A DNA stretch of 64,000 nt from contig CP128835.1 of the NCBI GenBank assembly GCA_030388825.1, forward strand, positions 3,094,001 through 3,158,000, written 5' to 3'. The first letter of the stretch is position 1. Each line of letters opens with the position of its first letter. Source of the stretch: Rossellomorea sp. AcN35-11 (GTDB taxonomy: Bacteria; Bacillota; Bacilli; Bacillales; Bacillaceae_B). This document shows, piece after piece, positions 26,832 through 40,497 of this stretch. The notes beneath the pieces are model-generated. The model saw only the letters and a list, made by a program, of their open reading frames with translations. It was not told the origin of the DNA and made no database searches. Both the position numbers and the translations under genes were made by a program.

Positions 26832-27029
26832 ACATTATTCAGCTGTACATCAAGATGTCCACTCTTTCAAGAGCTTCATTGGAGTGCTAGAAATAGAATC
26901 CTGGGGAAATAAAAACCTTTTAAAATAATTCGTTTATTTCTTATTGAATAAGGGTAATAGAATATCATTTGAATTATTATTTCAAGGATAAAGAGATAGA
27001 CATACGAAAATGGTGTTGGGGGTAATGTG

Positions 27030-28053
27030 ATGACAAAATATGATATTGATGTAAATGGCTCTATATTCGATTGGGACCTGGACAAAGGTTCCATTATGTT
27101 TGAGAATGATGAAGTCGTTCTCTTTTGGGTAAATACTGCATTCAAGACGTTGATTGACTCCATTGAGGAAATCGCAGGTGAAAAAGAGGCTCGATTGGTA
27201 CTTGAAACGGCTGGTTATCGAACTGGTCGTATAGTGAGTGAGTTTTATTTAGATTCCAGCGGAAGCACACATGAAATATTGGAAAAGCTTCCAAATACAT
27301 ATGTAACCGCAGGTTGGGGAATCACCGAAATACTTTCCTACTCAATCAATGAGAAGAAAGCTGTCGTTCAATTCTGTAATGGCTGGGAGTACAAAGTAAA
27401 TCGTGCCCAAGGGAAAGAAATCGAAGGGACATTTCTTCCAGGTCATTGGGCTGGCGTGTTTACCGGGTTGTTTGGCTCAAACGTCTGGTACCGGGTTCTG
27501 AAGAGTCAAATACAAGGGGATGACTGCAGTGTATATGAGTTTTTCTCTTCAGATATATCTCCTTCCTTAAATGTAAATGCCCTCCTGGAAGAACAAACTA
27601 TAGCGGCACAAAAAGAATTGGAGCGCGTGACGAACCTTCGAACAGAAGTCTTGTCTAATATGATCAAAGAGATCTCTTCACCTATTATTCCTGTACTCGA
27701 ATCCATTCTGGTCGTTCCACTTGTGGGACGTTATAATGAAGTGCGTGCAGAGGAACTGCTTAATAAAACACTCCTTAATCTCCCCCCGTTACAAAGCAGA
27801 GTATTTAATTATCGATTTGACGAGCCTTAGCGGTGTCGACGACTATACACTTACATTTATCGAGAAATTTGTAGGTGCAGCGACACTTTTAGGAACCAAC
27901 TGTTTATTGGTGGGTATCTCATCTGAATTGAGCATTCAAATAACGAAGAGTGGTTATCGCATGAATCAGATCCCTTCCTTCTCCATTCTTCAACAGGGTG
28001 TGAAATATGCATTAGATCAACAGGGGTTAGAAATCATGAAAAAGAAAAGGTAA
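27030..28053 (+). pseudogene. V4R-STAS sensor protein, frameshifted
   Basis: The frame is broken at the C6 run 27782-27787; removing one C joins LLNLP to RYKAEYLIIDLTSLSGVDD and gives 340 residues. Residues 1-185 resemble a V4R/XylR-N domain (LPGHWAGVFTGLFGSNVWYR and SQIQGDDCSVYEFF match the conserved C-terminal part). Residues 210-340 are a STAS domain of the RsbR/RsbS type (LTSLSGVDDYTLTFIEKF). Such combinations are regulatory proteins in which a small-molecule domain controls an anti-anti-sigma-like module. ATG 27030 is preceded by GGGGGT. No partner kinase gene is adjacent. Confidence 0.7.
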
Positions 28054-28233: not shown

Positions 28234-29394
28234 CTAGTTTAGTTTTACTATGGTTAATCCTGCACTGTTTATGGAGGTGTTATCTACATTACTAATTAGA
28301 TTATCCGATGTCTGACCAATATTCCTAAGTTCTAATTTCCCACCTGCCGGTACCGTAATGATTGTTTCCCCATTGACTTGAAAAATAGAGTCGAGTGTCA
28401 CTGGAGCTGTGGTGAAAACCCCCATTTGGTTTCCATACCTGCTGGAATTTACGATGGAACCATTCAAGAATATTGCATAAGCCCCTCCTCTACTGAACCC
28501 TGTTTTCCCACTTGTGAATATGACGTTATAACTTATCTTATAGACTCCCTCGTAAACTACTATTATAGATGTTCCTGTGTGAATAAAGTCCCCTTTTGAA
28601 CTGATACCCGTATGATTAAAAAGGATAGGCTGATCTGGAATAATGAGGTCTCCACCAGTTCTGTAAATAGTACAATAACTACTACCACAATTGCATGATC
28701 CAAGAGGTCCGGGCTCTCCTTGAGGTCCCGGTTCACCTTGAAGCCCCCGCTCTCCCTGAGGTCCCGGTTCACCTTGAAGTCCCCGCTCTCCCTGAGGTCC
28801 AGGTTCACCTTGAAGTCCCCGCTCTCCCTGAGGTCCCGGTTCGCCTTGAAGCCCCCGCTCTCCCTGAGGTCCCGGTTCACCTTGAAGCCCCCGCTCTCCC
28901 TGAGGTCCCGGTTCACCTTGAAGTCCCCGCTCTCCTTGAGGTCCCGGTTCACCTTGAAGTCCCCGCTCTCCCTGAGATCCCGGTTCACCTTGAAGTCCCC
29001 GCTCTCCCTGAGGTCCCGGTTCACCTTGAAGTCCCCGCTCTCCTTGAGGTCCCGGTTCACCTTGAAGCCCCCGCTCTCCCTGAGGTCCCGGTTCGCCTTG
29101 AAGCCCCCGCTCTCCCTGAGGTCCTGGTTCACCTTGAAGTCCCCGCTCTCCCTGAGGTCCCGGTTCACCTTGAAGCCCCCGCTCTCCCTGAGGTCCCGGT
29201 TCACCTTGAAGCCCCCGCTCTCCCTGAGGTCCCGGTTCGCCTTGAGGACCCTGGATACGACAAGAGCCTATTTCTTCATGAATGGCTTGGACTTCATGTT
29301 GAAGACCGTTAGGTTCTTTGTTTCTTTTTTTATCTTTTTCCCCCGTATATTTCTTTCGCTTGTCAGCCTTATTGCGATCTCTTTTAGTTGACAT
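28234..29394 (-). CDS. Collagen-like exosporium-type protein (BclA-like)
   Basis: About 386 residues. A basic N-terminus (residues 1-40, Lys/Arg-rich) precedes an uninterrupted run of about 61 Gly-x-y triplets (residues 49-232), mostly 14 copies of GEPGPQGERGLQ. A Cys-containing hinge (SCNCGSSYC) follows, then a C-terminal domain of about 145 residues with a C1q/TNF-like beta pattern (VVYEGVYKISYNVIF, GGKLELRN). This is the layout of Bacillus exosporium filament proteins: collagen stalk plus trimerising head. No cleavable signal peptide is visible, as for mother-cell-made spore proteins. ATG 29394 with AAGAAGGTGA upstream is preferred over the GTG three codons earlier. A sigma K-like promoter lies 71 bases upstream. 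Confidence 0.85.
   Translation of the reverse strand: MSTKRDRNKADKRKKYTGEKDKKRNKEPNGLQHEVQAIHEEIGSCRIQGPQGEPGPQGERGLQGEPGPQGERGLQGEPGPQGERGLQGEPGPQGERGLQGEPGPQGERGLQGEPGPQGERGLQGEPGPQGERGLQGEPGSQGERGLQGEPGPQGERGLQGEPGPQGERGLQGEPGPQGERGLQGEPGPQGERGLQGEPGPQGERGLQGEPGPQGERGLQGEPGPQGEPGPLGSCNCGSSYCTIYRTGGDLIIPDQPILFNHTGISSKGDFIHTGTSIIVVYEGVYKISYNVIFTSGKTGFSRGGAYAIFLNGSIVNSSRYGNQMGVFTTAPVTLDSIFQVNGETIITVPAGGKLELRNIGQTSDNLISNVDNTSINSAGLTIVKLN
28699..29250 (-). repeat. 36-bp tandem repeat coding for collagen triplets
   Basis: Fourteen complete 36-bp units (28738-29241) encode GEPGPQGERGLQ, one with Pro to Ser (GEPGSQ), and flanking partial units extend the collagen stretch to 28699-29250. Units differ only at a few silent third positions, so copy number is likely to vary between strains and may be mis-assembled. 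Confidence 0.95.
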
Positions 29395-29464
29395 ATTTCT
29401 CACCTTCTTCTTATATCAAGTTTATTCCTATTAAACAGTGAAGAATAGCTAAACAGAGTTACTA

Positions 29465-29491
29465 TAGTCTATGAAGACAAGAGGAATATGT
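29465..29491 (-). promoter_or_regulatory. Sigma K-like promoter of the collagen-like gene
   Basis: On the minus strand: AC (29491-29490), 16 bases, then CATAGACTA (29473-29465). This is an exact fit to AC-N16-CATAnnnTA, the late mother-cell consensus. Confidence 0.6.
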
Positions 29492-29735
29492 ATAGACAAA
29501 CATCCTGTGGTGTCATAAAAAAACAATTGTCCAGTGAATTTGAGAGAACATCCTGATGAAATCTGGAAAAAATGATCATCGATTCAACCATTAAGCCGTT
29601 TCTGAATTAGTAGAATATCGTTAATCGGTCGGTTATGTTCTTTCGTAATTTCAGCATTTGGCTCGGTTACAAAAGTATATCTATTTCCATACACTATAGA
29701 AAAAGTAACAACTACTTTTTAAGGAGTGAACACCG

Positions 29736-30290
29736 GTGGAAAATCTTTTCGCAGGAAAGAAGAAAATTTCAAAGAAAGAATTAGCAGCTTATGCGATGAT
29801 CGGGGATGGGAAAGACGGCGAGATTTACAAGGTTGCTGAAGATAAAGTTTTAAAATACTTTTTTAGAGAAGAAACACACGAACGGGAATTGGAAGCGATG
29901 AAAATTGGGCAGGCCTCACCCATTATGCCCCGCCTTTACGAATTCGGTGACAATTACATTGTAATGGAATTTGTTAAAGGAATATCTCTTGCCCGCCATA
30001 TGAAACGACAAGGCCATATCGATGAGGACATGACGAAAAAGATTTTATTTGTTTTGGGAGAATTTAAGAGATTAGGTTTCACAAGGTGGGATACGGAGGT
30101 TCGTCATATGTTAATGAATGAAGAAGGCGAATTCAAAGTGATTGATCATAAGAGGGCGTTCACATCGGATTCTCCCGTACCAACGAAGCTTTTAAAAGGG
30201 ATGAAGAAGTTTGGTTTAACCGGCGAGTTCCTGGGTCATGTTAAAACACTGGACCCCGATCTCCATAATGCCTGGAAAAAACTTAAGTAG
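29736..30290 (+). CDS. Small protein kinase-like protein
   Basis: 184 residues, a compact kinase fold. A nucleotide loop (IGDGKDGEIYKV), the lysine in KVLKYFF, a hinge (IVMEFVKGISLARHM), a catalytic-loop equivalent (WDTEVRHMLMN) and a metal-loop equivalent (VIDHKRAF) are present, but HRD and DFG are not standard, so activity is uncertain. It starts with GTG 29736 after AAGGAGTGAA. It is divergent from the collagen-like gene across 341 bases, which hold the sigma K-like promoter and no other gene. It might phosphorylate spore-surface proteins nearby; this is only an inference from location. Confidence 0.65.
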   Translation: MENLFAGKKKISKKELAAYAMIGDGKDGEIYKVAEDKVLKYFFREETHERELEAMKIGQASPIMPRLYEFGDNYIVMEFVKGISLARHMKRQGHIDEDMTKKILFVLGEFKRLGFTRWDTEVRHMLMNEEGEFKVIDHKRAFTSDSPVPTKLLKGMKKFGLTGEFLGHVKTLDPDLHNAWKKLK

Positions 30291-30418
30291 TTTCCTTTTC
30301 TGTACCATTTCGTTCCACCAAAAAAATATCTTAAATATGAAAACGTCCTTTCCTTTCATACATACCGGGAAGAACGTTTTCAATAAATTGGTTGGACATG
30401 CCTAGGACCATATAAAAA

Positions 30419-30446
30419 GGTAGTACTTTTCATAAAAAGTACTACC
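30419..30446 (-). terminator. Terminator of the first LGD-domain gene
   Basis: GGTAGTACTTTT/AAAAGTACTACC, perfect 12-bp stem with a CATA loop; five Us follow on the minus strand. It lies 11 bases beyond the stop. Confidence 0.9.
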
Positions 30447-30456
30447 TCAATCATAA

Positions 30457-30645
30457 TTAAACTTTTTTCACCGTTACCTGATCCAAGTGCGTAAATAAAA
30501 CGTCCCCATCACCATTAGACCAAACTAAGAAGTGATCTTCCGCTTTAATGAATGTTCCGTCGCAGTCTATTTTATCTGCTCCGGATAGAACTTCGATTTT
30601 ATCACCAAGCTTTAGTACTTTATTAAGTTTATCTGAAAAACCCAT
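30457..30645 (-). CDS. Spore-surface candidate, stand-alone LGD domain (62 aa)
   Basis: 62 residues, almost entirely one compact domain: LNKVLKLGDKIEVLSG, then GTFIKAEDHFLVW and VTVKKV. The pattern (short helix, Leu-Gly-Asp turn, alternating beta strands, F-x-V/L-W core) suggests a small Sm-like or SH3-like barrel, somewhat like the repeat units of B. subtilis CotB; that link is inference. The same domain occurs in the next three genes. AAAGGAGG precedes the ATG; a strong terminator follows. The upstream TATAGACTA at about 30680 resembles a sigma K -10, but its -35 is poor. Confidence 0.75.
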   Translation of the reverse strand: MGFSDKLNKVLKLGDKIEVLSGADKIDCDGTFIKAEDHFLVWSNGDGDVLFTHLDQVTVKKV

Positions 30646-30750
30646 AATGCCTCCTCCTTTCTTTACCGTGATACATTAGTCTATATATTTATATTAAATA
30701 AATCAGAATTTGATAGGGCTTTTACCTATCATTTCGTTTTTTTAGAAAAG

Positions 30751-30781
30751 AAAAATGACTGGAGAGCTTCCAGTCATTTTT
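30751..30781 (-). terminator. Terminator of the second LGD-domain gene
   Basis: AAAAATGACTGGA/TCCAGTCATTTTT with a 5-base loop, between the two small LGD-domain genes; bidirectional. Confidence 0.88.
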
Positions 30782-30802
30782 GCTTTTATTAAATAATGTT
30801 GA

Positions 30803-31009
30803 CTATACTTTACGTACAGTTACATTATTTAAATTGGAAGTGTTCATATGGCCGTCGTCGTCAGCCCAAACAACGAAGTTATCACTTGCATAGACAAATG
30901 AACCCTCTTCGATTTGTTCGTCACCTGATAGGACTTCGATTTTATCACCTAGAGATAAAATTTTATTAAGAAAATCTGCCATACTTCCATCGTTGAATAA
31001 ATGAGACAT
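30803..31009 (-). CDS. Spore-surface candidate, stand-alone LGD domain (68 aa)
   Basis: 68 residues. A 10-residue N-terminal segment (MSHLFNDGSM) is followed by the shared domain: LNKILSLGDKIEVLSGDEQI, GSFVYASDNFVVW, VTVRKV. It is clearly a paralogue of the 62-residue neighbour, with LGDKIEVLSG identical. No cysteine and no signal peptide. GGAGG precedes the ATG. A sigma K-like promoter lies at 31037-31064, and its own terminator separates it from the next gene, so the two small genes are independent units. Confidence 0.75.
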   Translation of the reverse strand: MSHLFNDGSMADFLNKILSLGDKIEVLSGDEQIEEGSFVYASDNFVVWADDDGHMNTSNLNNVTVRKV

Positions 31010-31036
31010 AATGTTTCCTCCTTTCGGTATTTACTC

Positions 31037-31064
31037 TATTTTTATGCTGAACCGAAAAATACGT
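31037..31064 (-). promoter_or_regulatory. Sigma K-like promoter of the 68-residue LGD gene
   Basis: AC (31064-31063), 16 bases, CATAAAAATA on the minus strand. The -35 and spacer match; the second half of the -10 is one base off the consensus. Confidence 0.4.
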
Positions 31065-31121
31065 TAAGGCAGATAACTAGATTTCAAAAAAATTTTTGTA
31101 TTTGGTCATTTACTAGAGTAA

Positions 31122-32243
31122 TTAATCTTTATTCTCATCAGGCATAGAGTTCGTTGACGAAAGATCAGAGTCCATTTTCAAAGAATCCTCTTCTAGAATG
31201 AACAAGGTTTCATCTTTGTTAACAGATAAGGTATCGTCTTCAGAAAGCTCTGTCCGTTCATCTTCATTTGAAGTCTCTGTCAGTTCATTTTCACCAGAAG
31301 CCTCTTCAGTCCGTTCGTCCTCATCTTCCCATGTATCCTGCTCCATTGTTGGATCCAGGCTATCATCGTTTATAACTTCCTCTGTGTCAGAAGCATATTC
31401 TGTTGATAATTCATCACTTTCTGTCTCTGAGTCCATTTCCCCTAAAGGTTCCTCCACAACTGATTCGGATATCACAGCTCCTGAAACACTTTCAAGGAGG
31501 TTCTCTTCAGTAGCCGCTTCACTTTCCAGCAATTCAGTGTCCTCTGAATCTAGATGAACATCCAGTGTTACTACGGATGCACTTTCATCAGAATGTTCTT
31601 CTTTCTCAAGTTTTACGAAGTTCAGGACTTCTTCATTTACACTACGTTCATCTTTTCTTTCCTTCTTGCTTCCTTCTTTTTTTCTTGAACCCTTTTCTTT
31701 CTTATCTTTTGAACCTGACTTTTTCTCTTTCTTCTTATCCCGATGGTGATCGCCTTTATGTTTCTTACTTTTATCATTTTCTTTCTTTTTTCTCTTATGT
31801 TTGGAACCGATTTTCCTGACACTAATCGGGCCGCATAAATCTGTGAAATTGACATTTGCTTCATGATCCATCCAGACCAGAATATTGTCATAAGCTGCTA
31901 CAAAAGTTCCTCCACAGCCAATCAACTCATCCTCGTTTAATACTTCAAGATGATCACCCAACTGGAATATTGTATTCAATACCTCGTCAATGGATTGACA
32001 TGGAATCCGGTCAAAGTCCGGTTTTTTGCAATGATCAGGTTTGCATTCATGATGATCATGGGGGTCTCCTTCACAATACTCATCCGTTTCGTGAGGATCT
32101 CCAACGCATAACTCTTCTTGTTCATCAGGGTCCCCTATACATAGCTCATCTTGCTCATCAGGATCTCCTTCGCAATGCTCATCATCGTCGTAATGATCGC
32201 TGTCACTTTTCGAGAAATCATCATACTCAAACTCATCAACCAT
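31122..32243 (-). CDS. Acidic/Lys-rich spore-coat candidate with LGD domain
   Basis: About 373 residues of very biased composition. Residues 1-75: acidic, with four Cys-bearing repeats of the form C-x-GDP-(D/H)-E-x-x-E and then a His/Cys-rich stretch (DHHECKPDHCKK). Residues 86-145: the LGD domain (IFQLGDHLEVLNEDELIGCG, GTFVAAYDNILVW). Residues 146-205: Lys/Arg-rich (KHKRKKK, KKEKKSGSKDKK). Residues 206-373: acidic Ser/Glu/Asp tail. No signal peptide. Cysteines and charge blocks suit cross-linked assembly in a spore layer. ATG 32243 is preferred to the GTG four codons upstream. A sigma K-like promoter is at 32285-32311. No family name recognised. Confidence 0.72.
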   Translation of the reverse strand: MVDEFEYDDFSKSDSDHYDDDEHCEGDPDEQDELCIGDPDEQEELCVGDPHETDEYCEGDPHDHHECKPDHCKKPDFDRIPCQSIDEVLNTIFQLGDHLEVLNEDELIGCGGTFVAAYDNILVWMDHEANVNFTDLCGPISVRKIGSKHKRKKKENDKSKKHKGDHHRDKKKEKKSGSKDKKEKGSRKKEGSKKERKDERSVNEEVLNFVKLEKEEHSDESASVVTLDVHLDSEDTELLESEAATEENLLESVSGAVISESVVEEPLGEMDSETESDELSTEYASDTEEVINDDSLDPTMEQDTWEDEDERTEEASGENELTETSNEDERTELSEDDTLSVNKDETLFILEEDSLKMDSDLSSTNSMPDENKD

Positions 32244-32284
32244 ATGTGTTCCCACTCCTTTACAATTTGTCTACAATTCATTAT

Positions 32285-32311
32285 CAATATATGTAGGTGA
32301 AAAAGGAATGT
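32285..32311 (-). promoter_or_regulatory. Sigma K-like promoter of the acidic LGD protein gene
   Basis: AC (32311-32310), 16 bases, CATATATTG (32293-32285) on the minus strand; only one -10 base differs from CATAnnnTA. Confidence 0.5.
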
Positions 32312-32348
32312 ATAGCCTATTTTGTGGTATAACCCCAAAATTTGAATC

Positions 32349-32375
32349 ACTCTGTCAGGGCTTTTGAATAGATTA
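32349..32375 (+). promoter_or_regulatory. Sigma K-like promoter of the 498-residue LGD protein gene
   Basis: AC (32349-32350), 16 bases, AATAGATTA (32367-32375); one base differs from CATAnnnTA. It is back-to-back with the divergent promoter at 32285-32311. Confidence 0.45.
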
Positions 32376-32406
32376 TCAATAGATACAGAGACATGGAGTG
32401 AAGCTC

Positions 32407-33903
32407 ATGCCCAATTGTTGTCTTTTTATAAATGAATACATTTTGCCAAGGATTTTTTCCTCCTTTTATTACGATGATCTTCTGGTCCCTTGTCACAATC
32501 AATCCATCTTCGTGAGCTATCATGCTGTCAAAAAAACAAACGTGAATGCTAATGAAGAATTACAGCAACATCCGGCATATGTTAATTCAACACAAGTATC
32601 TCACATCATTAGTCATATGATGAGCAGTCTTGACCAATCAACTGATTTTCATGAAGCATGCGATCGACCTACATTCGATCTCACTCTTGAATCAGAAGAA
32701 CAACAGCCGAGCATGATACTTTCTCGAATTAAGCCACGAAGGCATAAACGATCACGAAAATCTCCTTTCCATCTATCAAGAGGGATATCCTCTTCAGAAA
32801 GAATCAACTATATAGATCACAGCAAAACTCTTTCCAAATCAAGTTCTCAAGCGAACGCGCCTCCTGACATACAACCTGTACAAAAGGCAGAAGATCTGGA
32901 GAATCCGCTCAAAGCAGAACGTTCAAAAGATATTCAGCAGAATACCTATTCAGACAAACATCATACACTGGACAGCAGTGAACCCACGATTGGAAAACAT
33001 AAGAATCAAAAAAAACATAATCTATCACCTAAAGAATCACACTTTCCTTCAAGCTCACCTTTTAAAAGCACGCCAATAACTGATGATGACTCTAAAAAAA
33101 CGGGTGAAATAGATAATGAACTCAGACCGTCCAATCTGCGCGATGACATTAAACAGGCAGATACTCTTAAGAAAAAGACAGACCCACCTTTTAGAAAGAA
33201 AGACATCCAGTCAAAAGAATGCGTGAAGAACATAACAGAAACTGAGCCATCTACTGATGTTGACATCCGAGAATCAAACCTGGCAGCAGACAAAGTGAGA
33301 TATCAACTCCTTCGCACTGATTGGAGACCTGCAAAAATCGTAAATCGCGATAGAAAGGGTACTTCAGGCTTCGAATTCCACATCCTTCGATCAAATGCAG
33401 AATCAAAAAAGGTAAAACAGGATGTCAACCAGACAGAGGAGTCATCAAAAAAAATGGATTTAAGCAAAACAGACTTCACTACACTTCCTAAAAATGAGAG
33501 GTTTACTAGTTTACATTCAATCACATCTGCTGAAAAAAAATTAAAATTGAAACGACCTGATAGCGCAGCTGGAAAATCCATTAGTGATAACCGCCCTGAT
33601 AGCCTAAAGTTGAACCCGCCAAAAACATTGGAAAGCGGAAAGCTCCAACAAAGAAAACAGCAAAGAAATGAGCATCCGGTCTCGCTTCCTTCCCAATCAG
33701 TGAATACGATGGCGATTTTGAATAAATATTTCACACTCGGTGACAAAATCAACGTATTTTCAGGAAATAATCTACTTGATGAAAAAGGAACTTTTTTGAC
33801 TGCAGGACCTGATTTCTTTATTTGGATCGATGGGGATGGATATGTAAGATTACAAATCATCAGCGGTGGGATCAGCATTACTCAAAAAAAGAAGAAGAAA
33901 TAA
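32407..33903 (+). CDS. Large basic disordered spore-coat candidate with C-terminal LGD domain
   Basis: 498 residues. Residues 1-50 are hydrophobic with three cysteines (PNCCLFINEYILPRIF). Residues 50-430 are low-complexity, rich in Lys/Ser/Arg/Asp and predicted disordered, with a repeated short motif LLRTDWRPAKI / ILRSNAESKK. Residues 435-498 are the LGD domain (LNKYFTLGDKINVFSG, GTFLTAGPDFFIWIDGDG) with a Lys-rich tail. ATG 32407 follows GGAG at good spacing; a GTG three codons earlier is possible. It is divergent from the acidic LGD gene, and opposite charge suggests the two proteins could interact; that is inference. It precedes the sugar operon. Confidence 0.7.
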   Translation: MPNCCLFINEYILPRIFSSFYYDDLLVPCHNQSIFVSYHAVKKTNVNANEELQQHPAYVNSTQVSHIISHMMSSLDQSTDFHEACDRPTFDLTLESEEQQPSMILSRIKPRRHKRSRKSPFHLSRGISSSERINYIDHSKTLSKSSSQANAPPDIQPVQKAEDLENPLKAERSKDIQQNTYSDKHHTLDSSEPTIGKHKNQKKHNLSPKESHFPSSSPFKSTPITDDDSKKTGEIDNELRPSNLRDDIKQADTLKKKTDPPFRKKDIQSKECVKNITETEPSTDVDIRESNLAADKVRYQLLRTDWRPAKIVNRDRKGTSGFEFHILRSNAESKKVKQDVNQTEESSKKMDLSKTDFTTLPKNERFTSLHSITSAEKKLKLKRPDSAAGKSISDNRPDSLKLNPPKTLESGKLQQRKQQRNEHPVSLPSQSVNTMAILNKYFTLGDKINVFSGNNLLDEKGTFLTAGPDFFIWIDGDGYVRLQIISGGISITQKKKKK

Positions 33904-33904
33904 G

Positions 33905-33937
33905 AAACAGACTTTAGCCCTGTGCTAGTGTCTGTTT
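33905..33937 (+). terminator. Hairpin after the 498-residue LGD protein gene
   Basis: AAACAGAC (33905-33912)/GTCTGTTT (33930-33937) with a 17-base loop and only a short U stretch. Confidence 0.45.
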
Positions 33938-33955
33938 CGACTCTATATAAGGATA

Positions 33956-33964
33956 CATATAGTA
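33956..33964 (+). promoter_or_regulatory. Sigma K-like -10 of the sugar operon
   Basis: CATATAGTA is a perfect CATAnnnTA 32 bases before the PIG-L start. The -35 is less clear: an AC is present at 33940-33941, giving a 14-base spacer instead of 16. Confidence 0.4.
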
Positions 33965-33995
33965 ATGTAATAGATATATAAATGGGGTGAAGGGA

Positions 33996-34652
33996 ATGAA
34001 AGAAACTGTATTGGTCATAGCAGCACATCCGGATGATGAACTACTCGGTACGGCAGGAACACTAAAAAGACTAGTAGATCAAGGAAATAGAGTGGTCTCG
34101 ATCATTACAGCAAATGGAAGGAAAGAAGAAGCCCATCATATTCAACAGCTTGCCAGGAAAGCTAATAAAGAAATAGGGATTAAAGAAGTCATTTTCCTGG
34201 AGCATCCTAATCTTGAACTGGAAATGATGCCTCTTCATCTTTTCACAAAAGAAATAGAAAAATTAATTGATATTTACCGACCAACCCAAATTTTTACCCA
34301 TCATTACGGAGATGTGAATCGTGATCATCAAATCACCTTTCAAGCCGTCTTAACAGCAGTCCGGCCTGTACCGACCAATCAGCCGATTGAATTGATCACC
34401 TTTGAAACGGTCTCGTCCAGCGAATGGAATACACAGACAAATGACAAACAATTCAAACCCAATTATTATGTAGACATTTCAGAAGTGATTGATGATAAAC
34501 TGGCTTCTTTAAAACATTATGATGTAGAAATGAGGGACTTCCCTCACCCAAGGTCTTATGAGGGAATCAAACATTTGGCAAGTGTAAGGGGCATGACGGT
34601 TGGGGTCCGTTATGCAGAGGCATTTGAAGTTATTAGGAGGGTCTGGAAATGA
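33996..34652 (+). CDS. PIG-L/LmbE-family N-deacetylase
   Basis: 218 residues. The zinc site AHPDDELLG (residues 9-17) and the later HHYGDVNRDHQ (about residue 105) carry the His and Asp ligands of PIG-L deacetylases such as BshB and MshB, which remove N-acetyl from GlcNAc-containing substrates. Here it heads an operon of glycosyltransferases and probably deacetylates a spore-glycan precursor. ATG 33996 with GGGGTGAAGGGA upstream is preferred to GTG 33987. The stop overlaps the next start (ATGA). Confidence 0.88.
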   Translation: MKETVLVIAAHPDDELLGTAGTLKRLVDQGNRVVSIITANGRKEEAHHIQQLARKANKEIGIKEVIFLEHPNLELEMMPLHLFTKEIEKLIDIYRPTQIFTHHYGDVNRDHQITFQAVLTAVRPVPTNQPIELITFETVSSSEWNTQTNDKQFKPNYYVDISEVIDDKLASLKHYDVEMRDFPHPRSYEGIKHLASVRGMTVGVRYAEAFEVIRRVWK

Positions 34653-35989
34653 AGGAACTATATTTCCCCTATCCTTACGTAGTATCTGCCCTAGACAACT
34701 ATTACGGGATAAAAGCAAAGACAATTACGACAAAATTAAAGGACTCCGACAAGGGGTCTAAACGCAGGAAGAAAGACCGTAAGAAGAAAAGCAAATCTGA
34801 AAAAACGAAGCGAAAAACAGACAATAAGAAACTTTCCATTCTGATTGCAACTTTTTGGGACTATCCCCATACGGGCGGTTTATCCAACTACATTACAAGC
34901 ATGCGTGATGGTCTGCGTGCTTTAGGTCATAAAGTTGATATCATTTCTCCAAATCAGTTTTCTCAAAGCAAAGTGGAAAAATTGCGGGAAGTTGTTGTTC
35001 CCGAACTAAAGAACTTTTTTCAAAATAGGTATGGAACGTATACGAGTAAGATCATTCAGAGCTGCCGACTCCTCTATATTTATGAGCAGATGATGAAAAC
35101 AATTAAATTGGAAAAATACGACATTCTTCATGCTCAGGATTTATTTACAGCCAACATTTTAGGAAGATTTAACGAAAATCTAAATAAGCCGCTTCTATTT
35201 ACCCCCCACGGCATGTTTACTCTAAGCCGTGTAAAGTTCAACCGGATTGAAAAAGGATCTGAAGAAGAGGTGTACTACAAAGAAATAGAAAAGAAGGCGA
35301 TTGACTATGCAACCCATCTGGTGATTTTGAGTGACTCTTTCCGTGATCCATTGAGATCACTTGGTGCGAATCCTGCCAAGATGACGACCATTAATACAGG
35401 AATTGATTTTAAATCAATGGCGCGAGTCGAGAAAAAAGGAAAGGTTGTCATTTCGTGTATTGCCAGACTTGGTCCAAGAAAAGGACATTCCGATTTATTT
35501 AATGCCCTTTCCCGGATAAAGACTGTAAGTACAGATATAGAAGTCCAAATTGTCGGAGACGGGGAAATGCGGGAAACACTCGAAGCTCAAGTTCAATCTT
35601 TAAGACTGTCAAACGTCCGATTCTTAGGTAAACGAGATGATATCCCTGCTATTTTAAGCAAAACGGATATTTTTGTTCTGCCAACTATCAATGACAATTT
35701 ACCGATATCAATCATAGAAGCCATGCATAGCGGTTCTGCCATACTTACAACCGATTGTGGCGGCATCACGGAAATCATCCATCATAATGATACAGGCATC
35801 ATTGTACAACCTGGAAATGTCAGTCAGTTGGCCAACCACCTCAAACACTTGATTACAAATGAGCCGCTACGGAGGAAACTGGGCAGCAACGCTTCTCTAT
35901 ATGCCAGAAAACATCTCACTCGTGAAGCTATGATTGGGAAGATTGTTGAGACTTACCAAAGTCTATTCGTTTCAGGAGGGGAAATATGA
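34649..35989 (+). CDS. GT4 glycosyltransferase, YtcC-like
   Basis: 446 residues. The first ~30 residues (LYFPYPYVVSALDNYYGI) are followed by a Lys-rich linker (residues 37-67, KRRKKDRKKKSK) and then a GT-B fold: ILIATFWDYPHTGGLSNYI (acceptor domain start), HAQDLF, VISCIARLGPRKGHSDLF and the donor-binding LPTINDNLPISIIEAMHSG with the E-x7-E pattern. This matches retaining GT4 enzymes such as B. subtilis YtcC. It overlaps both neighbours by four bases (ATGA), so translation is coupled. It is a tandem paralogue of the gene at 38251. Donor and acceptor are unknown. Confidence 0.88.
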   Translation: MKELYFPYPYVVSALDNYYGIKAKTITTKLKDSDKGSKRRKKDRKKKSKSEKTKRKTDNKKLSILIATFWDYPHTGGLSNYITSMRDGLRALGHKVDIISPNQFSQSKVEKLREVVVPELKNFFQNRYGTYTSKIIQSCRLLYIYEQMMKTIKLEKYDILHAQDLFTANILGRFNENLNKPLLFTPHGMFTLSRVKFNRIEKGSEEEVYYKEIEKKAIDYATHLVILSDSFRDPLRSLGANPAKMTTINTGIDFKSMARVEKKGKVVISCIARLGPRKGHSDLFNALSRIKTVSTDIEVQIVGDGEMRETLEAQVQSLRLSNVRFLGKRDDIPAILSKTDIFVLPTINDNLPISIIEAMHSGSAILTTDCGGITEIIHHNDTGIIVQPGNVSQLANHLKHLITNEPLRRKLGSNASLYARKHLTREAMIGKIVETYQSLFVSGGEI

Positions 35990-37161
35990 AGTCATCTAAT
36001 CCAGCAGTTGTCCTTGATTTAAGCGCAAATGGGGTTGGGATCATCCATGCTCTTTCCACGAAAGGAATTGATGTTTACGCATTTGATACTGCCGGCCCCC
36101 ATTCAAGGGGAAAATCAAGACTTGCCACCTGTGGGGTATGTCCAAGCCCCTTAACCCAAGAAACTGAGCTGCTCTCCTTTCTAAAAGATGTAGCGATGCA
36201 ACTTGAAGATAAGCCCGTTCTATACGCAGGTGCAGATGATTATGTGGTCTTTATCTCTAAATTCAGAGATCAATTGTCACAGTATTACTTATTTCTATAT
36301 CCAGACCACTCTTTGATTATGGATCTATTAGATAAGAAAAAAACCTATGAACTAGCCTTGAAACATCATGTACCGACAGCGAAAACCTTTTTTGTGGAAA
36401 ACGAAGAGCAACTTGAAGAAGCAATCGGTCAATTAGAATTTCCTTGTATTCTAAAGCCTGTATTCGGGCACGAATTCAGAAAACATGTAAATAAAAAGGC
36501 CATTCATATACAAGACGCCATTCAATTAAAGAAAATCTTTCCTATATACAGGAAATTTGGAGAGCTTATCATTCAGGAAATCATCCCTGGAGATAACAAA
36601 TGCTTCTATAAAGTAGCCACATTCTATAATGAAGAGATGGAATTGCTCGCCCTCTTCACACTTCAAAAAAACCACCAATTCCCGGCTCAGTTTGGAACGG
36701 GGGCGCATATCGTAAGCAAGCGAATACCAGAACTTGTAGAAGCAGGTGTTCCATTATTAAAAACCCTTGGGCTAAAAGGAGTCAGTATGATTGAATATAA
36801 AAAGGACCCGCGGGACGGACAATATAAGCTCATCGAAATCAATCCACGTTTCTGGCTTACCCATAGTTTGACAGGGCATTCCGGAGTGGACTTTGCCTAT
36901 CAGTATTATCTGTACCTTACTGGTAAAAACCCCTCCCCTCAATTGCAGCAGGTAGAAGGAGTTCAATGGATTTACCTTGTTCGTTACTTCCTTACCTTTC
37001 TTGAAAAAAGGAAGAACGGTGAAATGAACCTTATAGATTTTTTCAATGGGTTAAGAGGGAGAAAGGTCTTCGCTCTTTTTGCTTTGAAGGATCCAATGCC
37101 CTTTATAAGGAGTACCACATCTCACTTATGGAATGCATTTAAAAGAAAACGAAAGGAGTGA
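35986..37161 (+). CDS. ATP-grasp ligase
   Basis: 391 residues. After an N-terminal pre-ATP-grasp domain (VVLDLSANGVGIIHALS), the ATP-grasp region shows FPCILKPVFGHEFRK (lysine of the large loop), LIIQEIIPGD (hinge) and KLIEINPRFW (metal-binding Glu and Asn). Enzymes of this fold join a carboxylate to an amine or similar nucleophile through an acyl phosphate. Placed among glycosyltransferases, it may attach an amino acid or acid sugar to the glycan; that is inference. It overlaps the upstream GT by four bases and runs to within eight bases of the next start. Confidence 0.88.
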   Translation: MKSSNPAVVLDLSANGVGIIHALSTKGIDVYAFDTAGPHSRGKSRLATCGVCPSPLTQETELLSFLKDVAMQLEDKPVLYAGADDYVVFISKFRDQLSQYYLFLYPDHSLIMDLLDKKKTYELALKHHVPTAKTFFVENEEQLEEAIGQLEFPCILKPVFGHEFRKHVNKKAIHIQDAIQLKKIFPIYRKFGELIIQEIIPGDNKCFYKVATFYNEEMELLALFTLQKNHQFPAQFGTGAHIVSKRIPELVEAGVPLLKTLGLKGVSMIEYKKDPRDGQYKLIEINPRFWLTHSLTGHSGVDFAYQYYLYLTGKNPSPQLQQVEGVQWIYLVRYFLTFLEKRKNGEMNLIDFFNGLRGRKVFALFALKDPMPFIRSTTSHLWNAFKRKRKE

Positions 37162-37168
37162 TTGCGTT

Positions 37169-38230
37169 TTGTACACACCAAAAGAAGTGTATGCCCACTT
37201 CCAAAAACATGCAATTGAAGAAAAGCTCTCTGCCTCACTCGGGAATAAAGTGACCATCCTTCCCGGATCAATCCAAAACCTTAAATCCACCAAAAGAAGC
37301 AGCATTTATCAGATCCAGTTACAGAAGAATACAGACATCTACCCCATCATCTTCAAAATCTACCATTCTACCAAATACAAGAATGAAATCGAAATCAATG
37401 TTTATAGTCAAGCTTACCCAGTATTAAAGGATTTTCTTCCTGAAATATATTTAATGGAGAAAATAGGGAGTGATACTTGGGTATTCATGGAGTTCGTCCG
37501 TCAAATTCGGGGGCAGCTGACATTCACACCCAAGCACTTTGATTACATTATCCCTACCCTTGCAAAACTTCATGCCCACACTTTTGAGGGGAATTTCAAG
37601 AAAGAAAAAAACATCTTCCAGTCATGGTTTCCCCTCTACAGTTCACCAAAAATGAAAAAAGACCGGGAGAAATTCATCACCAATACTGTGACGTTTCTAG
37701 ATAGGGCCAAAAAAGATAAGCAATTAAAAGACATAATCAAGCCACATTACAAATCATTAACAACTCTGTACAGAACCGGTCCAGACTTTTTCCCGGAATT
37801 ATTGGACAGCGGTTCTTCCATTACTCATGGGGATCTTCATATGCAGAACATCTGCTCAAAAGATGTCAGTAAAAATGAGCCTTGGGAGATACAATTCATC
37901 GATTGGGAGTCAGCCAAATATTCACCGACCTGGTTTGATATGATTGTTCTGGTAGAAATTTTACTTGGATTCAGGAAAGATTGGCAAAAGAATGCAGAAG
38001 AGATTCGCACCCATACAGTGGATGTTTATACGAAGGAAATGAAAAAATACGGCATCGAATTCAGCACCAAGCCCATTCATTTATATAAAATGGCCTATCT
38101 GCAACGCACTCTTGAAAAGGGATTACACACTCAGCTTAGACGTATTTTCGATAATCGTGGAGGTGAACTCCTTCCCTATCACTTAGAAAAAATTTCAACA
38201 TGGGGAAGTGAGCTGGGAATTTATAAATAA
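37169..38230 (+). CDS. CotS-like spore-coat kinase (APH fold)
   Basis: 353 residues. The open frame begins inside the upstream gene, but GGAG nine to ten bases before TTG 37169 (LYTPKEVYAHF) points to that start. The kinase fold is complete: IFKIYHSTKYKNEI (ATP Lys), VFMEFVRQI (hinge), HGDLHMQNIC (catalytic loop, about residue 220) and FIDWESAKYSPTWFD (metal Asp). It resembles the CotS/CotI/YutH group of coat-associated APH-like proteins of Bacillus. In this operon it may phosphorylate a sugar or a coat protein; the substrate is not known. Confidence 0.82.
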   Translation: MYTPKEVYAHFQKHAIEEKLSASLGNKVTILPGSIQNLKSTKRSSIYQIQLQKNTDIYPIIFKIYHSTKYKNEIEINVYSQAYPVLKDFLPEIYLMEKIGSDTWVFMEFVRQIRGQLTFTPKHFDYIIPTLAKLHAHTFEGNFKKEKNIFQSWFPLYSSPKMKKDREKFITNTVTFLDRAKKDKQLKDIIKPHYKSLTTLYRTGPDFFPELLDSGSSITHGDLHMQNICSKDVSKNEPWEIQFIDWESAKYSPTWFDMIVLVEILLGFRKDWQKNAEEIRTHTVDVYTKEMKKYGIEFSTKPIHLYKMAYLQRTLEKGLHTQLRRIFDNRGGELLPYHLEKISTWGSELGIYK

Positions 38231-38250
38231 AAATGAAAGGATGAGAATAC

Positions 38251-39528
38251 TTGAGTAGCATGCCCCCTCTCAACATTCATCCCTCCCTTTTGTCCATCAT
38301 GGATCAGTATTATAAAGTGGAACGAGACAATGAGGAGTCCTTCACAATTCAACCATTTGGTCAGAAAACAGAAGGCGATGATTCCAAGCCATTGAAAATC
38401 TTATACGTTACGTTTTTTCAATATCCTCATACAGGCGGTTTATCTCATTACATCACTTCCATTAAAAACGGCTTTGAAAAGGCCGGTCATAGTGTAGATG
38501 TCCTGGCACCCAACCACATGTCTTCAGAACAACTGGAAGAATGGGTCCCCCAGGCGGCTTCTGAAGCCCGAAACTTTATGACTGAACGTTATGGAAAGAC
38601 CAATGAAAAAATCGTTAAAAATTTAAGTTTTTTACATGTATTCGAACTCTTTTTGAAAGAAAAAAATCTCCAGCAATATGACATCATACACGCTCAAGAC
38701 TTATTTGCCATTTTCATCCTGGGTCACTTAAACCAAACGTATCAAAAACCTTTATTCTTTACGCCTCACGGATTCTTTACGAAAAGCAGATTAAAATTCG
38801 ATAAAATGCAGAAAGGCTCCCTCGAGGAAGCATATTTCACTCAACTTGAGAAAATAGGGATTGAAGCAAGTACGGAAATCATTTTGATTGCCGATTCCTT
38901 CCGATCTAACCTTAAGGAATTCGGTGCAACAGATGAAAAGATGATTACCGTTCATACAGGTATCGACTATGATCCCCTCCCAAAGAAAAATCACGAAAAC
39001 ATCATCCTGACATGTGTTTCCCGACTTTCCCCGCGTAAAGGGCATGGGTTACTCTTAGAAGCATTATCCTTGTTACGTGAACATCTGACAAACGTTGAGG
39101 TGTGGATTGTCGGGGATGGTGTCATGAAGGATCATCTGGTGAAACAAGCACAAGAATTACAATTGGACAACGTGATCTTTTGGGGAAATCGCAACGATAT
39201 ACCAAACATTCTATCCATGTCGGACATCTATGTATTAGCGACGGTTAATGACAATTTTCCCCTATCCGTCATGGAGGCAATGTTTTCTCAACAAGCCGTG
39301 ATTTCCACCACGTGTGGTGGGATCCCTGAAATGGTTCAGCATGAAATTACAGGCATCCTTTGTGATCCCGGGAATGTCGAACAGCTTGCACATGCGATCA
39401 AACGTTTTATAACAAAGAAAGAAGAACGTGAACGCTTTGCCAACACCGCTCAATCCTATGCCCGTCAACACTTGTCCAGTCACATCATGACGAGGAAAAT
39501 GGAACGAATCTATCAAACCTATATATGA
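38251..39528 (+). CDS. GT4 glycosyltransferase, second YtcC-like copy
   Basis: 425 residues, clearly a paralogue of the gene at 34649: ILYVTFFQYPHTGGLSHYI, YDIIHAQDLF, FTPHGFF, CVSRLSPRKGHGLLLEAL and LATVNDNFPLSVMEAM align along the whole length. It lacks the Lys-rich linker. It starts at TTG 38251, with AAGGATG at good spacing; the ATG three codons later is too far from the SD. A GT-B retaining enzyme; substrates unknown. Two related enzymes in one operon suggest sequential sugars of similar type or alternative donors. Confidence 0.88.
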   Translation: MSSMPPLNIHPSLLSIMDQYYKVERDNEESFTIQPFGQKTEGDDSKPLKILYVTFFQYPHTGGLSHYITSIKNGFEKAGHSVDVLAPNHMSSEQLEEWVPQAASEARNFMTERYGKTNEKIVKNLSFLHVFELFLKEKNLQQYDIIHAQDLFAIFILGHLNQTYQKPLFFTPHGFFTKSRLKFDKMQKGSLEEAYFTQLEKIGIEASTEIILIADSFRSNLKEFGATDEKMITVHTGIDYDPLPKKNHENIILTCVSRLSPRKGHGLLLEALSLLREHLTNVEVWIVGDGVMKDHLVKQAQELQLDNVIFWGNRNDIPNILSMSDIYVLATVNDNFPLSVMEAMFSQQAVISTTCGGIPEMVQHEITGILCDPGNVEQLAHAIKRFITKKEERERFANTAQSYARQHLSSHIMTRKMERIYQTYI

Positions 39529-39544
39529 AGAAAGGAGACTCTAC

Positions 39545-39580
39545 ATGAGGGAAAACATACTGGTCCATGAGCAAATATGA
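39545..39580 (+). CDS. Possible 11-codon coupling ORF before the epimerase
   Basis: AAAGGAGACTCTAC precedes ATG 39545 (MRENILVHEQI), which stops in TGA at 39578-39580, overlapping the epimerase ATG at 39577. The epimerase start itself has no good SD, so re-initiation is plausible. Confidence 0.3.
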   Translation: MRENILVHEQI

Positions 39581-40497
39581 AGATTTTAGTCACTGGCGGA
39601 GCAGGATTTATAGGTTCACACCTGGTAGATTTGCTGCTATCTGAGGGTCATACACCTATTATTCTAGATGATTTATCCAATGGCAGTGAGGCGAACGTGC
39701 CAAGCGGAGTGAAACTATATCGAAAAGATATATTATCGGATAAAGTGGAACATATTTTCAAAAAAGAAAAACCAGACATCGTTATGCACCTGGCTGCTCA
39801 GGTTAATGTAGATAGATCAATGGAAAACCCCGCAGAAGATGCTGCAATCAATGTATTGGGAACTGTGAGATTGTTAGAGTACAGTATAAAATATGGTGTA
39901 AAAAAATTCATCTTCTCCTCTTCATGTGCTGTATACGGATATACAAATGAAGTGATCCACGAAGAAAGTCCTACTAGCCCCATTTCCTTTTACGGAACGT
40001 CTAAATTGGTGTCAGAAACCTATATCAAGTTGTTTCACAGGTTATATCATATTCCCTATACGATCCTTCGATACGCAAATGTATATGGGCCGAGACAGCG
40101 AACTGATGGTGAAGGCGGAGTGATCAGCATTTTCATTGATCAGCTGTTAAGTGATGAAACACCTGTCATTTACGGAGATGGCAACCAGACAAGGGACTTT
40201 GTCTACGTAGAAGACGTAGCCCGTGCAAACCTTCTTTCGGTTTCAAACGCTGATAACCTAGTCGTTAATATCGGTTCTGGCAGCCAAACATCCGTAAACC
40301 TGCTCTTTACCCTGCTTTCAAACCTGCTCAACTTATCTAAAACACCTACCTATGTATCAAAACGTAACGGGGATATTATGCACAGCCAGCTAACAAACGC
40401 AAAAGCATCTGAAAATCTCTCTTGGGAACCTAAGTATGACCTGATTTCTGGATTAGAGCACACATTGGCCTATTTCAAAGAAAGAAAAAGAGAGTGA
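39577..40497 (+). CDS. NAD-dependent nucleotide-sugar epimerase, YtcB-like
   Basis: 306 residues, extended SDR. TGGAGFIGSHL (residues 6-16) binds NAD, the catalytic S-x-Y-x-x-x-K appears as SFYGTSK with upstream SSSCAVYG, and YANVYGPRQ plus GDGNQTRDFVYVEDVA are the substrate-binding signatures of UDP-glucose 4-epimerase and related enzymes. B. subtilis YtcB is the likely counterpart. It supplies an activated sugar for the two glycosyltransferases and closes the operon. Exact sugar unknown. Confidence 0.9.
   Translation: MKILVTGGAGFIGSHLVDLLLSEGHTPIILDDLSNGSEANVPSGVKLYRKDILSDKVEHIFKKEKPDIVMHLAAQVNVDRSMENPAEDAAINVLGTVRLLEYSIKYGVKKFIFSSSCAVYGYTNEVIHEESPTSPISFYGTSKLVSETYIKLFHRLYHIPYTILRYANVYGPRQRTDGEGGVISIFIDQLLSDETPVIYGDGNQTRDFVYVEDVARANLLSVSNADNLVVNIGSGSQTSVNLLFTLLSNLLNLSKTPTYVSKRNGDIMHSQLTNAKASENLSWEPKYDLISGLEHTLAYFKERKRE

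Follow-up and report, generated by a model that had tools for sequence, protein, structure and literature searches.

The window analysed here, a 64,000-nucleotide stretch of contig CP128835.1 from Rossellomorea sp. AcN35-11, contains a twelve-gene locus in which four proteins sharing a small domain, here termed LGD, are encoded beside a set of genes for making and modifying a glycan (Table 1). The locus is composed of two separable parts, the glycan operon and the LGD proteins, which we think probably act as a sporulation module: a barrel scaffold, made in the mother cell, for an outer layer of the spore, together with the enzymes that glycosylate it. What is new is the LGD family and the gene combination, whereas the general kind of system, a spore-surface protein plus a glycan cluster, is known; no description of either the combination or the family was found among the titles and abstract openings of the open-access papers listed. 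When the open reading frames (ORFs) were re-read, all twelve genes lay where an earlier, sequence-only reading of this DNA had placed them, and the two 4-bp overlaps (34649-34652 and 35986-35989) were present; ATPG and the kinase gene share a longer overlap of 29 bp at 37133-37161.

With LGD1 as the query, the other three LGD proteins of the genome are recovered at E-values of 1.9e-14, 1.5e-9 and 5.3e-8, and the next match lies at 0.73; judged by sequence, the four proteins are true paralogues. No Pfam model is matched by the LGD proteins. The predicted structure of LGD1 (mean predicted local distance difference test score 91.2) begins with an N-terminal helix (residues 3-10), followed by five strands (residues 16-21, 30-36, 39-43, 49-53, and 57-61), and is predicted, at the level of the fold only, to be a small Sm/Hfq-like barrel. 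Two solved spore proteins, the ring-forming GerQ and the crust protein CgeA, have a similar fold, and neither is among the 29 PDB sequences hit by the LGD profile (E ≤ 10). LGD appears to constitute a new protein family, with a predicted barrel akin to recently solved coat and crust proteins. A search of phages with LGD1 by tblastn gave no match. The short domain DUF2642 (PF10842) was considered as the family of LGD and rejected on the Pfam model, which none of 29 LGD members matches (E ≤ 10). A remote relationship may exist: a profile comparison by hhalign gives a p of 0.0052 and a probability of 7% over 40 columns. Nor does DUF2642 serve as a general substitute for LGD beside the operon, since a four-row profile finds members in two of 83 loci (pBM600 and Bacillus infantis).

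The two long LGD proteins, LGD3 and LGD4, are transcribed divergently in the window, in R. aquimaris and Halobacillus dabanensis, and in three further genomes (G461, G177, and G488). LGD3 is acidic in all six (net charge −22 to −234, the extreme being that of G461), and LGD4 is basic in five (+4 to +36), with −2 in G461. Within the genus, LGD4 has the N-terminal motif CYLFINE..LPRIFSS.YYDD..PCHNQS, which is close in G461, partly recognisable in G177 and G488, and absent from the short H. dabanensis ORF.

Family matches confirm the PIG-L protein, the two glycosyltransferases of family 4 (GT4), the ATP-grasp-type protein, the APH/EcKL-type kinase and the epimerase of the glycan operon, and GTa and GTb are indeed paralogous, at 42% identity over 431 columns. 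The HPDDE and DH residues of PIGL are invariant in six orthologues. Deacetylation of a glycan would follow from these enzyme families, as might aminoacylation; the term "aminoacyl-modified" in the sequence-only reading derives solely from the ATP-grasp family and amounts to a guess. Among the proteins listed for a cell-free fraction in a proteomics study of B. amyloliquefaciens is one of PIG-L type with 26% identity to BshB1 (PMC12020853), which may or may not be the operon PIGL. The kinase keeps the HGDLH..N and DWE residues in eight of eight members and is therefore probably active. Its description as CotS-like was not confirmed: among the 11 NCBIfam families matched by eight members (E ≤ 10) there is no CotS, YutH or YsxE model, and no PDB sequence match to YtaA was obtained, which leaves a tie of fold only. 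Nor is a link of the GT4s to CotSA/YtcC supported: a GTb search of four genomes yielded only GTa and GTb at E ≤ 1e-30, a search in which no CotSA or YtcC sequence was compared, and kinship of GTa and GTb with CotSA/YtcC was set aside on this result.

The small kinase-like protein KIN is present, with sub-cut-off matches to RIO1 and Pkinase, and its grouping has to be corrected. In the B. velezensis group, B. ectoiniformans and Priestia chromosomes its gene precedes PIGL, whereas in Sporosarcina, Neobacillus and several Bacillus sp. it closes the operon at the 3′ end; because it accompanies the operon in genera lacking LGD, we count it as part of the glycan operon. The collagen-like protein COL has a collagen repeat (Pfam Collagen, 119.4 bits), and its proposed likeness to BclA is qualified by a BclA_C score of 27.8 bits, under the cut-off of 38. 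COL adjoins KIN in all eight Rossellomorea carriers examined (L059, L060, five genomes, and the window), and L062, L063, L055 and L040 showed no collagen-type stretch of 30 residues, so that the collagen gene is a constant neighbour within Rossellomorea only.

Outside the window, the distribution was followed from PIG-L relatives, of which the best 80 loci of a longer listing were considered. The closest named genome among the matches listed is Bacillus sp. RO3, with a 100% identical PIG-L; the R. aquimaris JM7 record bears this locus too. PIGL, GTa, ATPG and the kinase follow one another in this order, in most cases together with GTb and/or the epimerase, in Priestia, the B. velezensis/siamensis/nakamurai group, Sporosarcina, Neobacillus, Peribacillus and others, and the same operon order is found in Rossellomorea (L059, L060) and Halobacillus (L061-L063); in B. 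ectoiniformans, GTa has no separate labelled ORF and the ATPG match lies within an 826-residue ORF. A six-frame profile scan (E ≤ 1) detected LGD in five loci, L059-L063, whereas the remaining 75 of the 80 gave no match. In Rossellomorea and Halobacillus, KIN and PIGL flank the LGD genes, which look like an insertion into the gene order of Bacillus and Priestia. Among the genomes sampled from the genus, LGD is carried by seven of 35, including that of the window, with four copies each, and the ATP-grasp gene by eight of 36, namely the seven LGD carriers and G451 (the genome of L059), which itself bears all four LGDs; the other 28 have neither by these searches. More widely, LGD was found in 11 of 398 genomes drawn from the class (six at E ≤ 1e-8), where the ATP-grasp gene was found in seven (E ≤ 1e-50), and in 13 of 397 drawn from the order. 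Among the loci examined, that of G461 has the full layout of KIN, the LGDs and PIGL to GTb; in G177, PIGL and GTa accompany three LGDs, and the ATP-grasp gene is on a separate contig; and in G488 three LGDs adjoin a 40%-identical ATP-grasp gene. The neighbourhood survey thus found the genes linked, rather than scattered, in Rossellomorea, Halobacillus, G461 and G177, with both halves sharing plasmids in Priestia, and the proposed linkage stands to that extent; each half also occurs alone elsewhere. CotZ-type proteins, tried as a marker of carriers, occur in all 36 genus genomes and are uninformative.

Three side observations concern the operon in other genomes. It ends without an epimerase in G017 (L037 8418-8554); in B. 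siamensis (L068 8765-17900) it lies between genes that read, by eye, as rplI and dnaC; and the ATP-grasp matches of G111 (L151) and G154 (L152), of one other genus, are each flagged with an internal TAG.

Sigma-K promoters follow the consensus AC, 15-18 bases, CATANNNTR, which has a background of 0.037 per 250 nt in the window. Motifs of this kind precede COL, KIN and LGD3 in the window, that of COL being found also in L059 and L060. The full motif stands 5′ of KIN in ten of ten LGD-carrying loci with KIN (two of them, L036 and L060, from the same genome) and 5′ of LGD3 in all ten Rossellomorea and Halobacillus loci. For the operon itself, 17 of 30 PIGL loci, from Rossellomorea, Halobacillus, B. 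ectoiniformans, P. megaterium and the B. velezensis group, show CATANNNTR at positions −31 to −33, and several of the rest have off-consensus CATATA-type sequences. When the motif is slightly widened, it is found 5′ of the LGD of the Priestia plasmid pBM600 and of the LGDs of G735 and G677, not of G591, and 5′ of LGD3 and/or LGD4 in G461, G488 and G177. The strict motif lies within 120 nt upstream of 14 of 32 module genes, compared with six of 122 control ORFs with free upstream sequence (p 3e-7), a significance inflated by orthologues among the module genes, which were promoter-proximal and chosen by hand; a looser control, operon-internal ORFs included, gives four of 127 other ORFs. By these motifs, COL, KIN and LGD3 of the window are candidate members of the sigma-K regulon. 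A strong inverted repeat (33904-33938), just 5′ of the −10 box of PIGL, has similar counterparts in other Rossellomorea, Halobacillus and B. ectoiniformans; because the last has it without LGD4, the repeat seems to belong to the operon, for which it might serve as operator, attenuator or terminator.

The two parts meet again on Priestia plasmids. In 72,556 plasmid records searched by tblastn, a Priestia LGD (G735) matches 24, of which 23 are from Priestia, and PIGL matches 38, of which 37 are from Priestia; both are present on 20 records, which are near relatives and not 20 independent cases. On pBM600 of P. megaterium QM B1551, the LGD protein (4810-5094, BMQ_RS29880) matches the LGD profile at E 1.9e-20, PIGL-GTa-ATPG-kinase occupy 29342-33536, and KIN lies at 35373-35942, the module proteins being 57 to 73% identical to those of the window. 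Two proteins with the spore coat X/V domain (Coat_X) and one DUF2642 protein are encoded within 8 kb of PIGL on pBM600. DUF2642-type proteins with threonine-rich stretches were seen near the pBM600 operon (L160 2372-2932) and near PIGL of B. infantis (L081 3108-3632), the latter member scoring just under the Pfam cut-off. P. megaterium strains without pBM600 had lost the exosporium (Manetsberger et al. 2015, PMC4674009). Deletion of bxpB, which is on pBM600, had a minor effect only, so that an essential pBM600 factor was left unidentified in that study, and its Discussion calls for identifying the plasmid-encoded proteins of nap localisation and basal-layer assembly (PMC4674009). Concrete candidates on pBM600 are BMQ_RS29880, the LGD protein, and BMQ_RS26615-26640, the operon.

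The module appears to have moved between genera. Compared with the window, H. alkaliphilus has identities of 92% (PIGL), 84% (ATPG), 87% (kinase), and 80% (GTb), close to those of R. aquimaris (94, 86, 87, and 83%, respectively), and SpoIIP of the window is 94% identical to that of R. aquimaris and 41-47% identical to those of three Halobacillus species. In a tree of the ATP-grasp proteins, the Halobacillus rows fall among the Rossellomorea rows (support 98/94 for the joint clade and 82-93/84-91 for the inner nesting), with starred branches compatible with one origin of each group. On these sequence comparisons, the module probably reached Halobacillus by transfer with Rossellomorea, and the spore-surface module would apparently be common to the two genera by this route. 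In H. alkaliphilus (L061 1-832), a transposon-type ORF that reads as TnpB-like adjoins a truncated LGD4 where the contig ends; the L061 stretch does not include KIN or LGD1-3.

We propose the following scheme, for which gene content, recurrent linkage, promoter-like motifs, the predicted fold and the presence on an exosporium-linked plasmid are observations, and expression, location, self-assembly, acceptor and chemistry are what we infer. Late sigma factors (sigma-K, perhaps sigma-E) would switch on the LGD genes, KIN and the glycan operon in the mother cell. By analogy with GerQ, the Sm-like barrels of LGD would probably assemble by themselves into rings, filaments or sheets. In LGD3, which is acidic, and LGD4, which is usually basic, the barrel would serve as a tether; the two may attract each other through their opposite charges and would form a scaffold in an outer coat or exosporium layer. 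The epimerase would provide a sugar nucleotide, the two GT4s would assemble a short glycan, carried by a scaffold protein or, in genomes that have it, by the collagen protein, PIG-L would strip an N-acetyl group from the glycan, and the ATP-grasp enzyme and the kinase would modify it afterwards, perhaps adding an amino acid and phosphate. A bolder version, which we regard as possible and put forward tentatively, is that LGD founds a new family of Sm-like, ring- or sheet-forming building blocks of the exosporium or outer spore layer, moves between genera in company with a dedicated glycosylation operon, and belongs to the pBM600 factor or factors that the P. megaterium exosporium needs. If so, GerQ, CgeA and LGD would make small Sm-type barrels a general construction element of spore surfaces.

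Several observations weigh against uniting the two halves in one spore-surface system. Only two genomes of the class draw, that of the window (G000) and G177, hold both. In the fetched stretches of G036, G168, G184, G236, G498 and G662, no operon gene is labelled beside the LGDs (those of G236 and G662 were not picked up as ORFs in this check, and the stretches of G168 and G236 are short or at a contig end), with the exception of G184, where a distantly related PIG-L gene (24% identity) lies some 5 kb away from the LGDs. The operon, in turn, occurs without adjacent LGD in B. ectoiniformans, Priestia chromosomes, the B. velezensis group, Sporosarcina, Neobacillus and Peribacillus. As each half occurs alone in several lineages, neither needs the other, and the co-occurrence within the genus may be a single event because the Rossellomorea carriers may share one ancestor. 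On pBM600, the LGD gene is about 24 kb away from the operon; the plasmid holds many other genes, its loss names none of the module genes, and a role of pBM500 in the exosporium was not ruled out (PMC4674009). The full promoter motif 5′ of KIN is found in none of 17 loci lacking LGD, six of which keep the −10 box alone, and there is none at LGD1, LGD2, LGD4 or PIGL in the Rossellomorea and Halobacillus loci. As for the fold, the structural scores stay below 8 and do not set GerQ and CgeA apart from the barrels of Hfq, GatD and BirA. The proposal of one system that builds and decorates an outer spore layer hence stands in part: the sigma-K-like promoters, the Coat_X neighbours and pBM600 support a spore-surface role, while the halves are separable.

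The main alternative is a small glycoside of the sporulation stage, in which the operon makes a diffusible, glycosylated, deacetylated and amino-acid-coupled small molecule and the LGD proteins are unrelated coat proteins that are merely adjacent. A GT4, a PIG-L enzyme and a ligase are the logic of bacillithiol and mycothiol synthesis; the best NCBIfam models are BshB1 and BshB2 for PIGL, with BshA among those for GTa and GTb; the structure model of the kinase resembles choline, N-acetylhexosamine and aminoglycoside kinases; and the operon often occurs without LGD. PIGL cannot be equated with BshB1, however, as it scores 59.3 bits against a curated cut-off of 182.5, and a sporulation-type −10 box 5′ of the operon, the Coat_X genes and exosporium-linked plasmid that surround it in Priestia, and the joint presence of LGD and operon in several families make this explanation unlikely in our judgement. 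Less probable still is a vegetative capsule or exopolysaccharide with the collagen and LGD proteins as passengers. Although capsule clusters often contain GT4, epimerase and ATP-grasp genes, the window operon has no flippase, polymerase or export gene and does have the sporulation-type −10 box; the presence of SpoIVA in ten of ten tested carriers of either half, compared with 267 of 398 class-draw genomes, is consistent with sporulation, if weakly so, and we rate a capsule as very improbable.

The remaining explanation concerns the LGD proteins alone, as nucleic-acid-binding mother-cell regulators of Sm/KOW type, the neighbourhood being regulatory and not structural. The LGD profile does match the Spt5 KOW chain 4ytl in the PDB, at a whole-sequence E-value of 8.4e-7 and a best single-domain i-E of 0.0055, and Hfq is among the top structural ties. 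Yet two of the four window proteins are long, a net charge of −75 for LGD3, and of −234 in G461, is unlike that of an RNA binder, and small-barrel folds are found in spore coat and crust proteins as well, by which such regulators become quite improbable, if slightly less so than the capsule. Scaffold proteins with their own glycosylation enzymes remain the reading that we favour.

Table 1. Genes, promoter-like motifs and other features of the locus (window coordinates).
Feature	Position	Strand	Basis or remarks
COL, collagen-like protein	28234-29394	-	ATG start at 29394, longest ORF to 29403; PF01391 119 bits
COL sigma-K-like promoter, AC-N16-CATAGACTA	29465-29491	-	also in L059, L060
KIN sigma-K-like promoter, AC-N17-CATACACTA	29669-29696	+	motif search
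KIN, small protein-kinase-like protein	29736-30290	+	RIO1/Pkinase matches under cut-off
LGD1, 62 amino acids, LGD domain only	30457-30645	-	paralogue search; structure model
LGD2, 68 amino acids, LGD domain only	30803-31009	-	paralogue search
LGD3	31122-32255	-	LGD domain 31809-31994, flanked by Cys-containing N-terminus and acidic tail; net charge −75
LGD3 sigma-K-like promoter, AC-N16-CATATATTG	32285-32311	-	motif search
LGD4	32398-33903	+	LGD domain at the C-terminus (33712-33885), preceded by a long, polar and basic middle part; N-terminal motif common to relatives
Inverted repeat (hairpin) 5′ of PIGL	33904-33938	+	RNA fold z −3.27 for 33904-33990
Glycan operon sigma-E/K-like −10 box CATATAGTA	33956-33964	+	motif search
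PIGL, PIG-L/LmbE-type de-N-acetylase	33987-34652	+	PF02585 78.6 bits
GTa, GT4 glycosyltransferase, Lys-rich N-terminal extension	34649-35989	+	family match
ATPG, ATP-grasp-type ligase	35986-37161	+	family match
APH/EcKL-type kinase ("CotSk")	37133-38230	+	EcKL 46.3 bits
GTb, GT4 glycosyltransferase, GTa paralogue	38251-39528	+	family match, identity
EPI, GalE-like NAD-dependent sugar epimerase	39577-40497	+	PF01370 222 bits; TIGR01179 205.9 bits vs cut-off 262.3

The window sits in a 4.19-Mb contig of a genome totalling 4,815,552 bases. At 27027-28053 are two overlapping ORFs, V4R-like and STAS-like by reading, whose counterpart in Cytobacillus spongiae CY-G is one 341-residue ORF (LS684_RS21880); because the counterpart is a single ORF, the pair may reflect a frameshift or sequencing error. 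The spoIVA gene of the window genome (G000:C1:2588112-2589588) is split in two, and its second part contains a TGA; the genome is also rated 9% contaminated, and the split is probably assembly noise. A 690-kb "plasmid" of C. spongiae CY-G, NZ_CP089998.1 (L159), matches window positions 1-25000 at 99% and bears spoIIP, guaC and protoporphyrinogen oxidase, the same region being in the 4.19-Mb contig here; its plasmid label or genus name may be wrong.

Of the known systems, the ytaA/cotS - cotSA/ytcC - ytcAB - ytdA cluster of B. subtilis is alike in its related GT4 pair (47% identity there, 42% here), its kinase of choline/APH fold, its GalE-type epimerase and its spore-stage control (PMC2860764). 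CotS may be inactive (PMC2860764), whereas catalytic motifs are retained in the kinase of the operon, for which no CotS-family model gave a match; the locus here has PIG-L, ATP-grasp, KIN and LGD in addition, and the ytcA and ytdA types are not in the operon. On pBM600, PIGL, GTa, ATPG, the kinase, KIN and one LGD protein are likewise together on the plasmid, differing in the distance of LGD from the operon and in a kinase without GTb beside it; the study of the P. megaterium exosporium treats BclA1, BclA2, BxpB and Alr, and the strings "glycosyl" and "deacetylase" do not occur in its main text (PMC4674009). Bacillithiol synthesis by BshA and BshB uses the same GT4 and PIG-L families, from which the operon enzymes are separated by scores far under the curated cut-offs. 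COL resembles BclA in its Gly-X-Y repeats and a C-terminal domain that is weakly BclA_C-like, and is unlike it in falling under the cut-off and in standing beside the module in Rossellomorea only. DUF2642 is, like LGD, a short domain of similar length with members near the operon on pBM600 and near B. infantis PIGL, though its model is matched by no LGD member. Finally, CgeA (PDB 9l9d) and GerQ (PDB 8zra, PMC11405398) are small helix-plus-barrel spore proteins similar in fold to the LGD model, from which they differ in sequence, with 8 and 14% identity, respectively, over the structural alignment.

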